From a virus: DNA of 29,843 nucleotides. The stretch lies in IMG/VR virus record IMGVR_UViG_3300017757_000081, positions 1-29,843 of that record. One strand, given 5' to 3'. Numbering within the stretch: the first letter of the stretch is position 1; each line of letters begins with the position of its first letter. Made by a program: the position numbers and the translations under genes. The notes below the pieces were generated by a model. The model ran no database searches. It was given only the letters and a program-made list of their open reading frames with translations, and was not told the origin of the DNA. This document shows, piece by piece, positions 15,575-17,837 of the stretch.

Positions 15575-16300
15575 ATGGTAGAACAAGTAGAAATTAAAGC
15601 AGAAGAAACAACAGCAGAGACTGCTGAACCTGTATTAAAAACAGAGAGACCTGAAGGTTTACCTGAGAAATTTAATTCAGTAGAAGATATGGCTAAATCA
15701 TATCAGGAACTGGAATCTAAATTAGGACAACCTAAAGCTGAGGAGTCTACATCTGAACCTAAAGCTGACGACAACAACTTAGAGATAGCTGAGAAAGCTA
15801 CTCAAGCTGCTGGTCTAGACATGGGTGCACTAAATGCTGAGTATGCTGAGAAAGGTGAATTAGCTCAAGAGTCTTATGATGCTTTAGAAAAAGCGGGTAT
15901 TAGTAGAGAATACGTAGACCAGTTTATTGCTGGACAACAAGCGGTTGCAGATAAGCAATCAGGAGAAATCAAAGGAATAGCTGGTGGTGACGAAGGTTAC
16001 GAAGCTATGACTGGATGGGCTAAAGAGAATTTAACTGATGCTGAAATAGAAGCTTATAACTCAGCTGTAAATAGTGGAAACATGGAAACAACTAAGTTAG
16101 CAGTCACTGGTCTTAAAGCTAGATATGATGCTAATGAAGGTAGTGACCCTAAACTATTATCAGGCAAAGCTACAGGCACTGGTGAGAAAGGTTTTGAGTC
16201 TTGGGCTCAAGTCACAGAAGCAATGAAAGATGCTAGGTATGAGAAAGACCCAGCGTATCAAGCTGAAGTACAGAGCAAAATAGCAAACAGTAACTTATAG
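15575..16300 (+). CDS. Capsid assembly scaffolding protein (T7 gp9-like)
   Basis: 241 residues (T7: 307), acidic and probably mainly helical. The diagnostic part is near the N-terminus, LPEKFNSVEDMAKSYQELE, a pattern shared by scaffold proteins of T7-like phages. Then a long Glu/Ala/Lys-rich body follows, and a basic-acidic end (DARYEKDPAYQAEVQSKI) that probably docks on the capsid protein. Strong ribosome site AAAGGAGA (15559-15566). Placed between portal and capsid as in T7, except that two small basic genes separate it from the capsid gene. It guides prohead assembly and is lost before maturation. Confidence 0.93.
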   Translation: MVEQVEIKAEETTAETAEPVLKTERPEGLPEKFNSVEDMAKSYQELESKLGQPKAEESTSEPKADDNNLEIAEKATQAAGLDMGALNAEYAEKGELAQESYDALEKAGISREYVDQFIAGQQAVADKQSGEIKGIAGGDEGYEAMTGWAKENLTDAEIEAYNSAVNSGNMETTKLAVTGLKARYDANEGSDPKLLSGKATGTGEKGFESWAQVTEAMKDARYEKDPAYQAEVQSKIANSNL

Positions 16301-16308
16301 GAGTAATT

Positions 16309-16434
16309 ATGTCTTTGTATGCAAATATAAATAAACGTAAAAAAGCTGGAACTAGTAGAAGCAAAAAGAACTCTACTATATCTAAAAAATCTTATTCTAA
16401 TATGAAGAAAGGTTTTCCTAAGAAGAAGAAGTAA
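16309..16434 (+). CDS. 41-residue Lys/Arg-rich miniprotein between scaffold and capsid
   Basis: ATG 16309 follows the scaffold stop by eight bases and has TAGGAG (16298-16303) upstream, overlapping that stop. The frame reads MSLYANINKRKKAGTSRSK and ends MKKGFPKKKK; about 16 of the 41 residues are Lys or Arg and none is acidic. It stops in a TAATG overlap with the next, also basic, gene. The charge suggests binding to DNA or to an acidic protein such as the scaffold. I recall similar short proteins in marine podoviruses but no known function. Confidence 0.75.
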   Translation: MSLYANINKRKKAGTSRSKKNSTISKKSYSNMKKGFPKKKK

Positions 16435-16673
16435 TGACTTTAAAAAGACACCAAAGCAAAACTGGCGGACTAAATGCCGCTGGACGTGCTTATTACAAAC
16501 GTAAAACTGGGGCTAATCTCAAGCCGCCTGTAACAGGTAAACCTAAGAAAGGTTCTAAAGCAGCTGGTAGAAAGAAAAGCTTTTGTGCAAGAATGAGTGG
16601 TGTTAAAGGTGCAATGAGAAAAAATGGAAAACCGACACGTAAGGCTCTAGCTTTACGTAAGTGGAAATGTTGA
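16434..16673 (+). CDS. 79-residue basic protein (DUF6321-like, unknown function)
   Basis: Starts in a TAATG overlap with the miniprotein before it. Very basic: MTLKRHQSKTGGLNAAGRAY, a Lys/Gly/Pro-rich middle (PVTGKPKKGSKAAGRKKSF), then CARMSGVKGAMRKNGKPTRK and ALALRKWKC at the end. The blocks SKTGGLNA-x-GRAYY, SFCARMSG and RKAL-x-LRKW are, as I recall, those of the family DUF6321 seen in many marine phages, usually near head or packaging genes. The two Cys (in SFCARM and the last residue) and the K-P-T-R-K block suggest nucleic-acid contact. Function unknown; placing before the capsid gene is unlike T7. Confidence 0.82.
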   Translation: MTLKRHQSKTGGLNAAGRAYYKRKTGANLKPPVTGKPKKGSKAAGRKKSFCARMSGVKGAMRKNGKPTRKALALRKWKC

Positions 16674-16806
16674 CATAACAGTGCGACCTTTTTAGGTGGC
16701 TGTTGCCGACAAGTAGTAGTAACTTGACCTTCTGCGGAAGACAATCTTGGGGTGAATCTTAGAGGCTTTTATAAACAATTAACTTTAAATCATAGGAGAT
16801 TTTATT
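16674..16806 (+). other. Structured 133-base leader before the capsid gene
   Basis: Non-coding gap with no good promoter copy. It holds ACCT-TTTT-AGGT (about 16686-16697), GGC-TGTT-GCC (16698-16707) and CTTC-TGCG-GAAG (16729-16740), the last extended by TTG/CAA across a small internal loop. A sequence AGTGCGACCTTTTTAGG (16680-16696) resembles the phage promoter, but its spacing is wrong. The ribosome site TAGGAGA (16793-16799) is strong, and a 13-base block around it (AAATCATAGGAGA) also precedes the gene at 13779. A leader that stabilises or boosts capsid mRNA fits, but is inference. Confidence 0.4.
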
Positions 16807-17787
16807 ATGGCAAATGCTACTCCAGTATCTGTCGGTAGAGTCAACGCTGGTGGTTCTGAAGACGCTCTGTTTCTGAAAGTTTTTGCTGGAGAAGTTTTAA
16901 CTTCTTTTGAAAGAGCTTCAGTAACTCAAGGGTCTGAAACTGTCCGTTCTATTAGCTCAGGTAAATCTGCTACTTTCCCAGTAATGGGTAGAGTGGCTGC
17001 GGCTTACCATACAGCTGGTGCGGAAATCACAGGCAACGACGTAAACCACAACGAAAAGGTCATTACTATTAATGACTTATTAATTAGCTCAGTTTTCCTT
17101 AGCAATATTGAGGAAGCGAAAAATCACTGGGATGTAAGAGGAGCTTATTCTACTGAAATTGGTAGAGCTTTAGCTTTCCAAAAAGATAAGCACATCTTAC
17201 AAACTATTGGTCAAGCTGCACAAGCTTCTGCAAACGTATCTGATTCAGGTTACGGAGCGGGAACTGTGTTAACTGATACAAACATTGCATCAGCTACAGA
17301 CGCAACTGCTGCTAACGCAATGATAGACGCATTATTTGATGCGGCTAGAACAATGGATAATAACTACGTTCCTAAAGAAGGCAGAAAAGCTTTCATTAGA
17401 ACTGAAGAGTATTATAAATTAGCAAACGCTACTAACGCTGTAAACGTTGACTTTAGCGGTCAAGGTTCTATTGCTGAAGGTAAAGTTATGAAGATTGCTG
17501 GAATTGAATTAATCCCAACTCCACATTTTGTTTCTTCTAACATTACAACAGCATTACCTGACGCTGGTTCAGCTACTGCTGGTGGAACTAAACCACAAGC
17601 GGTTAACTTAGCAAACTATGTATGTCTAGTATGTCATCCATCAGCTGCTGGTACTGTCAAATTGATGGACTTAGCGACTGAAATGGAATATGACATAAGA
17701 CGTCAGGGAACGCTAATGGTAGCTAAATACGCTATGGGACACGGCGTGCTACGTCCTGAAGCGGCTGTAGGTATTAAAGAAGCGTAA
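16807..17787 (+). CDS. Major capsid protein (T7 gp10A-like)
   Basis: 326 residues (T7 gp10A: 345). The beginning (NAGGSEDALFLKVFAGEVLT, then SFERASV) and GKSATFPVMGRVAAAYHTAG are the usual start of podoviral HK97-fold capsid proteins. Further blocks are ITINDLLISSVFLSNIEEAK, YSTEIGRALAFQKDK and, near the end, MEYDIRRQGTLMVAKYAMGH followed by GVLRPEAAVGI, all with clear T7 gp10 equivalents. No frameshift extension (as in T7 gp10B) is evident after the TAA. Strong ribosome site TAGGAGA and an intrinsic terminator 18 bases after the stop point to a highly expressed transcript. Confidence 0.96.
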   Translation: MANATPVSVGRVNAGGSEDALFLKVFAGEVLTSFERASVTQGSETVRSISSGKSATFPVMGRVAAAYHTAGAEITGNDVNHNEKVITINDLLISSVFLSNIEEAKNHWDVRGAYSTEIGRALAFQKDKHILQTIGQAAQASANVSDSGYGAGTVLTDTNIASATDATAANAMIDALFDAARTMDNNYVPKEGRKAFIRTEEYYKLANATNAVNVDFSGQGSIAEGKVMKIAGIELIPTPHFVSSNITTALPDAGSATAGGTKPQAVNLANYVCLVCHPSAAGTVKLMDLATEMEYDIRRQGTLMVAKYAMGHGVLRPEAAVGIKEA

Positions 17788-17804: not shown

Positions 17805-17837
17805 GAGAGGGTGGCTTCGGCTGCCCTCTTTCTTTTT
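17805..17837 (+). terminator. Intrinsic terminator after the capsid gene
   Basis: GAGAGGGTGGC (17805-17815), loop TTCG (17816-17819), GCTGCCCTCTT (17820-17830): an 11-pair stem including three G-T pairs, capped by a UUCG loop, followed by TCTTTTT. It has the place of the T7 late terminator T-phi, just behind the capsid gene. It would set a high ratio of capsid mRNA to tail mRNA. Confidence 0.9.

Follow-up and report, generated by a model that had tools for sequence, protein, structure and literature searches.

Two very small genes lie between the scaffold and major capsid genes of the viral DNA studied here, and the question raised by this locus is what such strongly basic peptides do at that site. 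The window, meaning the whole stretch of DNA that was analyzed (29,843 nucleotides; IMG/VR record IMGVR_UViG_3300017757_000081), is, judged by its gene content, a piece of a T7-like phage of Pelagibacter (a pelagiphage). Profile searches revealed a phage RNA polymerase, a DNA polymerase, a connector, a scaffold and tail genes, and the closest named relatives of the capsid protein were those of the pelagiphages Eistla EXVC025P and HTVC031P (88% identity each). A tRNA scan found none, and no Rfam family was found in the window or in the intergenic stretch. A sequence-only reading of this DNA had placed two open reading frames (ORFs), linked by TAATG, between the two head genes. The coordinates confirmed both points, with flanking genes of the T7 gp9 and gp10 types (Table 1); the TAA of the 41-residue ORF occupies 16432-16434 and the ATG of the 79-residue ORF occupies 16434-16436.

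Table 1. Features at the scaffold-capsid junction of the window.
Feature	Position	Strand	Remarks
Scaffold protein, T7 gp9 type, acidic	15575..16300	+	PF05396, E=3.5e-20
Likely ribosome-binding site GGAG of the 41-aa gene	16300..16303	+	overlaps scaffold stop codon; read by eye
41-aa LYANI-box protein, type B	16309..16434	+	very basic, no D/E; phrog_25774
79-aa DUF6321 protein	16434..16673	+	N-box GGLxxxGR..Y, C-box RKSFCAR..G...R...WxC; start overlaps preceding stop
Major capsid protein, T7 gp10 type	16807..17787	+	PF21703, E=7.9e-87
Terminator-like hairpin, 11 pairs, then T-rich tail	17805-17830	+	just after capsid gene

A conserved RNA-like element with three hairpins, found in pelagiphages, was also observed between the DUF6321 and capsid genes (16677-16745, + strand). 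In 14 sequences (12 distinct), the two outer hairpins, comprising three helices drawn by eye, were paired in 132 of 132 cells. Seven of 12 pairs were changed on both sides, a number reached by 27 of 500 shuffles, and the covariation score was 0.51 versus at most 0.11 for slid controls (0/500 shuffles). The element matched no Rfam family, and its single-sequence folding was unremarkable (z -0.23).

The 41-residue protein contains 15 Lys and Arg residues and has a computed pI of 11.1. It had been described as about 40% Lys/Arg without acidic residues; the absence of Asp and Glu holds, whereas the basic share is 36.6%, not quite as high. The 79-residue protein is basic, as stated, with 25 Lys and Arg residues (31.6%) and a pI of 11.8, and it is likewise free of Asp and Glu. 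The computed charges of the two peptides are +14.5 and +24.5, respectively, and that of the scaffold is about -24 (pI 4.4). These values make it electrostatically plausible that the peptides are assembly helpers, which would bind the acidic scaffold or tune its exit and would not be kept in the mature head. The genes lie directly after the scaffold gene, and in T4, head assembly is slower without the internal protein IPIII, while internal proteins co-purify with gp22 (PMC9026906). We nevertheless consider such a helper role rather improbable, as a homolog, S-CREM2 gp137, was reported in purified particles (PMC10665884), and in several other phages the genes are located near the terminase, not the scaffold.

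Both ORFs match established protein families. The 79-residue protein, which had been called DUF6321-like, proved to be a true member of the family, a stronger result than claimed (PF19846, E=1.2e-24; 87.2 bits against a cut-off of 28.5; profile positions 1-72 of 72), and the 41-residue protein matched phrog_25774 (E=6.7e-22, positions 1-41 of 42). Searches with tblastn returned relatives of the former in 189 phage records at E<=0.01 and of the latter in 33 at E<=1. The dN/dS ratio was 0.05-0.19 in 6 of 7 pairs for the 41-residue gene and 0.09-0.20 in 7 of 8 pairs for the 79-residue gene, with dS saturated in one pair of each and above 1 in most of the 13 of 15 pairs that were computable. Because of these relatives and the low dN/dS values, the two ORFs are real genes under purifying selection and not chance ORFs.

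To describe the DUF6321 family, we aligned 35 domains and found R46, S49, C51, A52, R53, G56, R69, W77 and C79 to be invariant and the N-box (G11 G12 L13, G17 R18, G26, L29 K30 and P32) to be nearly so; two Cys residues and the Trp were conserved in at least 90% of 78 sequences. An AlphaFold2 model based on the 78 sequences predicted three helices (residues 15-25, 42-55 and 69-76) with a pLDDT of 87.4 and a pTM of 0.66. Foldseek with this model returned two matches from the PDB, the best at E 5.6 and none credible, and a PDB profile search gave no sequence match. Against BFVD, 14 matches were obtained at E<=0.001 with 39-65% identity, most of them named DUF6321; one 'AAA domain' and one 'Ferritin/DPS' fusion were also among the BFVD matches. 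Searches that differed in query and limits placed the domain in 348 and 547 phage records, including those of cyanobacteria, SAR11, Methylophilales and Vibrio phages. It was absent from T4, and P-SSP7, HTVC019P and Syn5 yielded no match at E<=1; a 39-aa ORF before the P-SSP7 capsid gene, considered as a relative of the pair, looks unrelated. DUF6321 relatives are also encoded by 61 genome-collection contigs assigned to a very wide range of bacteria and archaea (L257-L317); these contigs are probably phage contigs binned into MAGs, or prophages. A full-text search of the open-licence literature found no paper with the name DUF6321, and none appeared among the related-topic matches listed.

The partner protein belongs to a group, here called LYANI, with a (G/S)LYxNI box and basic residues after it, in which two forms can be distinguished. 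Type B is the form in the window, HTVC119P and HTVC200P, while type A (GLYANIHAKRKRIAAGSGEKMRKPG...) is present in HTVC031P, S-SBP1 and P-SCSP1s. The type A and type B profiles matched no common ORF, so the grouping rests on the box and the shared place. Stand-alone LYANI genes with an N-terminal stretch before the box often start with MAKRGLYANI. The two mini-genes were often, but not always, neighbors. At loci found with DUF6321, a LYANI gene lay within 600 bp in 22 of 63 (none did in the other 41), and DUF6321 lay within 600 bp at 38 of 67 loci found with type A and at 21 of 68 found with type B. Loci with no profile match or with <600 bp on either side were dropped from these counts, leaving 63/80, 67/80, 68/80 and 52/61. 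All neighbors were on the same strand, and the gap was at most 10 bp in 20, 25 and 10 cases of the DUF6321, A and B sets, respectively. Where LYANI was missing, other tiny basic proteins often adjoined DUF6321. We observed families of the types KRWFKEKWVDVRSGKPCG..C, YPSAYANMYAS..C, KHHSxKHMxxM and KQRKLAxVAPPxDKIT beside it (L020, L026, L034, L041, L047, L048, L055, L069, L074, L076 and others); the first two also occur as beads within long T4-like proteins.

Type A was never found within 600 bp of type B (0/68 loci), and two such alternative types would fit the arms-race turnover of injected effectors, which would be packaged and yet counter restriction, or bind the nucleoid or RNA, in the newly infected cell, as with T4 IPI and Alt. 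The basic internal proteins of T4 bind DNA at low salt, many of them are ejected, and IPI blocks restriction (PMC9026906). Conservation of DUF6321, however, extends over phages that infect cyanobacteria, SAR11, Methylophilales and Vibrio, whereas the T4 internal proteins are described as not highly conserved (PMC9026906), and no host target is known. An effector role is therefore possible but unlikely in our judgment.

In several other phages, the genes lie among head or packaging genes. In HTVC031P, HTVC119P and HTVC200P, the slot between scaffold and capsid is occupied by the pair; in HTVC019P and HTVC011P, it holds LYANI but not DUF6321 (in the latter, a 6-kb stretch around the slot was scanned). 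Whether the genes are 'inserted', as had been suggested, is consequently a matter of view. In the T7-like phage P-SCSP1s, both genes follow directly after the capsid gene. The pair precedes the terminase in S-TIP28; it does so too in the Methylophilales phage Venkman, where an endonuclease gene intervenes. The pair or its relatives adjoin TerL, or lie between TerS and TerL, in some phages. Against a head role, some DUF6321 genes, such as that of Ma-LMM01, are located away from the head genes. Since the genes adjoin the capsid gene, and capsid genes are highly expressed, the peptides could be decoration or cement proteins, as the sequence-only reading had also proposed. This idea is disfavored because the accessible text of the cryo-EM study of P-SCSP1u, a relative of the pair-carrying P-SCSP1s, reports no decoration proteins (PMC10575957); with no credible fold match and no sequence match in the PDB either, we consider it improbable in the extreme.

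The same slot holds hli and psbA in P-SSP7 and S-SBP1, endonuclease genes are nearby in some phages, and a possible mobile cassette that also contains petE, PTOX, zwf and gnd has been reported to include T4-GC119 (PMC3037559). The two genes might accordingly be accessory cargo of a variable slot, perhaps moved by the neighboring endonucleases, or other late proteins that do not enter the virion. The low dN/dS values and the head or packaging neighborhood in several unrelated phages argue against this, as does the evidence from relatives described below (predicted protease sites, targeting sequences and detection in virions), and we regard it as very unlikely.

What this analysis adds is a link to T4-like phages, in which the two proteins can be parts of one. 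LYANI and DUF6321 were fused in 55 ORFs (22 after removal of near-duplicates), of which 42 and 11 were in two T4-like sets and 2 in contigs filed under bacteria; LYANI preceded DUF6321 in all 55, just as the LYANI gene precedes DUF6321 in the window. Of 160 DUF6321 ORFs in the two T4-like sets, 152 were at least 110 aa long, and the domain was C-terminal in all 152. This share of long proteins is biased, because long DUF6321 proteins had served as the queries for these two sets; in another set, L001-080, only 5 of 80 reached 110 aa. The domain was internal in P-SSM4_160, L266 and L270. The long proteins are Lys-rich and contain recurring beads, namely W..C..C, YPSAYA and CW..NCVP modules, and the W..C..C and YPSAYA modules also occur as stand-alone mini-genes. 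The smallest fused proteins, those of L369 (143 aa; MMKNFREFRELAE-AKRGLYANIHAKRKRG...ESFELTQE-AAAWTRKAG...DUF6321) and L483 (185 aa; MLTFKKYLEE-GERGLWDNIHAKRKR...KLFE-YAVDAKGHK...DUF6321), can be read part by part. We also observed a 1019-aa ORF in L270 (3864-6923) with an internal DUF6321 bead and a recurring (G)RIIxFE-like motif; it had no other Pfam match at E<=0.01.

The junctions between beads carry a putative cleavage signal. The T4 prohead protease gp21 cuts after L/I-x-E (PMC9026906), and the motif before DUF6321 resembles this specificity. A Glu was present 3 or 4 residues before the W of the AW motif in 42 of 53 non-redundant DUF6321 junctions, compared with 20% for neighboring linker position pairs (p=3e-20; this and the other p-values given here are descriptive, the patterns having been picked after examples were viewed). 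Before these 53 were counted, junctions with an anchor <35 residues into the ORF had been removed, as had near-duplicates (70% identity over 24 aa). Within the 42 Glu junctions, P3 was L in 13, V in 10, I in 6 and M in 1, so that 30 were hydrophobic and 19 were L or I; for comparison, the LIVMF share was 17% in linkers (p=1e-14, descriptive as above), and two positions ahead of any Glu in these proteins it was 27%. A (hydrophobic)-x-E site was likewise found in the last 8 residues before LYANI in 11 of 18 cases (control, 7.5%), before CW beads in 33 of 43 (10%), before Y beads in 11 of 22 (12%) and before W beads in 12 of 30 (5%). As the linkers are acidic, the Glu site counts are strong but indirect. 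Junctions of another class, LLE|AAVDAKGHK (E at -4 in 81% of 16 non-redundant cases), have homologous linkers and were for this reason not counted as independent evidence. Exactly three residues separated the last Glu from the GL of LYANI in 37 of 54 fused ORFs; among 11 non-redundant ones, the spacing was three residues in 4 and one residue in 5. The idea that the mini-gene starts exactly at the cut was thus only partly borne out, and with only 4/11 fitting, its start corresponds roughly to the predicted cut place.

T4 internal proteins enter the core by means of a targeting propeptide of 10-19 residues (PMC9026906). A targeting regex modelled on T4 was used to search for such starts; a looser first version had matched unrelated ORFs and was replaced before the T4 control. 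In T4 itself, 2 of 261 ORFs matched, with identical MKTYQEFIAEA starts and lengths of 100 and 193 aa, which we take by start and size to be IPII and IPIII. The propeptides of IPII and IPIII are reported to be identical (PMC9026906). The regex matched 35/263 and 11/346 ORFs in the two T4-like DUF6321 sets and 4/433 in L001-080, where L057 and L066 accounted for all four. It matched 0/651 ORFs of the LYANI-A set and 0/633 of the LYANI-B set, and in S-SM1 and P-SSM4 0/208 and 1/208. A strict form of the motif was present in 7/30 and 0/44 non-redundant complete-start DUF6321 proteins of the two T4-like sets. Bead proteins with their own targeting-like start included those of L483 and L426 and S-SZBM1_192, which reads MKTFKQYITE-AK...MRAE-GAAWTRKEG...DUF6321. 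In L345-504, however, the start showed no significant excess on bead ORFs over others (11/115 vs 40/742, p=0.09), and neighbors such as nucleotidyltransferases carry it too. We therefore rejected it as a marker of bead proteins as such; it marks the company of bead genes. The window proteins start with MSLYANINKRKK (41 aa) and MTLKRHQSKTGG (79 aa) and lack a T4-type targeting sequence. Of 13 long IMG/VR contigs that carry DUF6321 bead genes, 12 contained the protease family PF03420 (the exception being a 73-kb record), as did S-SM1, P-SSM4 and T4. It was found in 0/7 T7-like phages with LYANI or DUF6321 mini-genes, and the window, possibly only a fragment, gave no match either.

Targeting-like starts were also observed in T4-like contigs (L426, L429, L472, L473, L476, L489, L495 and others) on nucleotidyltransferase-like (AFGRMNPPT), KLKHI(T/H)H-type and other proteins, and this pattern of starts suggests a larger set of packaged proteins in these phages. 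Nucleotidyltransferase-like ORFs with such a start were present in L066 and L429, one ORF of L290 carries both DUF6321 and a CTP_transf_like domain (the latter at E=0.0016, which falls short of the Pfam cut-off), and nucleotidyltransferase-like proteins are reported in several cyanophage virions (PMC10665884, PMC9146016, PMC9602691).

Published virion data on relatives point both ways. The DUF6321 match of the T4-like phage S-CREM2 (109291-109512) is the C terminus of gp137 (108049-109521), which is encoded between the terminase subunits. This protein was listed among the virion proteins with 4 unique peptides and 4.1% coverage (Table 3 of PMC10665884); it is possible that none of these peptides falls in the DUF6321 bead, and the authors consider that some proteins may have been co-purified. 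The adjoining gp136, which is Lys-rich and starts with MQTFSMFFSED..., is in the same list with 8 peptides (PMC10665884). The 517-aa DUF6321 protein S-SCSM1_29 is labelled 'virion protein' in its record, and 45 virion proteins are reported for S-SCSM1 (PMC9602691); we infer that the label marks detection by mass spectrometry. S-SZBM1_192, with its targeting-like start and site, is not among the 30 virion proteins in Table 1 of PMC9146016, and S-SM1_115 is still labelled 'hypothetical'. The Syn5 LYANI-B protein gp59 has no 'structural protein' label, whereas gp53, gp54 and gp58 carry it. A tryptic digest simulated in silico yielded a single peptide of at least 7 aa from the 41-aa window protein and two from the 79-aa one, and Glu-C would cut neither protein. 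No pelagiphage virion proteome was recognizable by title among the matches listed, and a word search of the accessible P-SCSP1u text found no mention of mass spectrometry, hypothetical or small proteins.

The fused relative looks built for packing into the head and for cutting, and the window pair therefore probably represents DNA-handling peptides inside the head. Of the three ideas in the sequence-only reading (DNA neutralization in the head, scaffold binding and capsid decoration), a DNA-related role in the head is the best supported, through homology and the virion mass spectrometry of S-CREM2 gp137, although it applies to the window phage only by extension. Our preferred reading, which we judge to be probable, is that the pair are separately encoded basic internal-head peptides resembling the T4 internal proteins but with neither targeting sequence nor protease. 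The two cationic peptides would enter the head as it assembles, together with the acidic scaffold or later, would stay with the packaged DNA in a charge-neutralizing or DNA-organizing role, and may exit along with the DNA at infection. In T4-like phages, one precursor would combine LYANI, a cleavable linker and DUF6321, sometimes behind a targeting sequence, and the prohead protease would cut LYANI and DUF6321 apart. T7-like phages without the protease would make the finished beads directly from mini-genes between scaffold and capsid; since the beads are encoded as free mini-genes beside these genes, neither targeting peptide nor cutting would be needed. A broader proposal, which we advance tentatively, is that tailed phages share an alphabet of tiny basic head-interior beads (LYANI, DUF6321, W and Y modules), encoded as a cut precursor in T4-like phages and as overlapping mini-genes starting near the cut places in T7-like phages, with DUF6321 as a virion DNA-organizing fold.

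The fusion, the site and the virion evidence together give DUF6321, previously without an assigned function, a concrete proposed role. If this is correct, basic internal head proteins, which are associated with T4-like and giant phages, also occur in some small marine phages of the T7 type, and polyprotein processing and separate mini-genes are two delivery routes for the same set of internal-head peptides. The T4 internal proteins are present at about 300 copies each (PMC9026906); at that number, the approximately 39 charges per pair would offset an estimated 15% or so of the charge of a 40-kb genome.

Comparison with known systems revealed both similarities and differences. Like T4 IPI, IPII and IPIII, the window peptides are small, basic and probably internal to the head, and the plan of those proteins (a targeting-like start, a (hydrophobic)-x-E site and a basic bead) was found in some T4-like relatives of the pair. 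In contrast to the T4 proteins, which consist of a targeting sequence and a basic body and are cut by gp21, the window beads are two free ORFs without a targeting sequence, no PF03420 was found in the window, and DUF6321 does not occur in T4; we do not claim membership of the pair in the T4 internal-protein family because the targeting sequence is missing. With respect to Pfam DUF6321, the 79-aa protein is a full-length member, but it is a free mini-gene product rather than the C-terminal bead of a longer protein. The family phrog_25774, of unknown function, is linked here to a second form, type A, which occupies the same place next to DUF6321. The inner-body and ejection proteins of the giant phages phiKZ and SPN3US are head-internal and matured by a gp21-like protease that cuts after Glu (PMC9026906), and the comparison with the pair is one of predicted location and processing. 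Internal head proteins are already known; what is new is the split between a cleavable precursor and free mini-genes.
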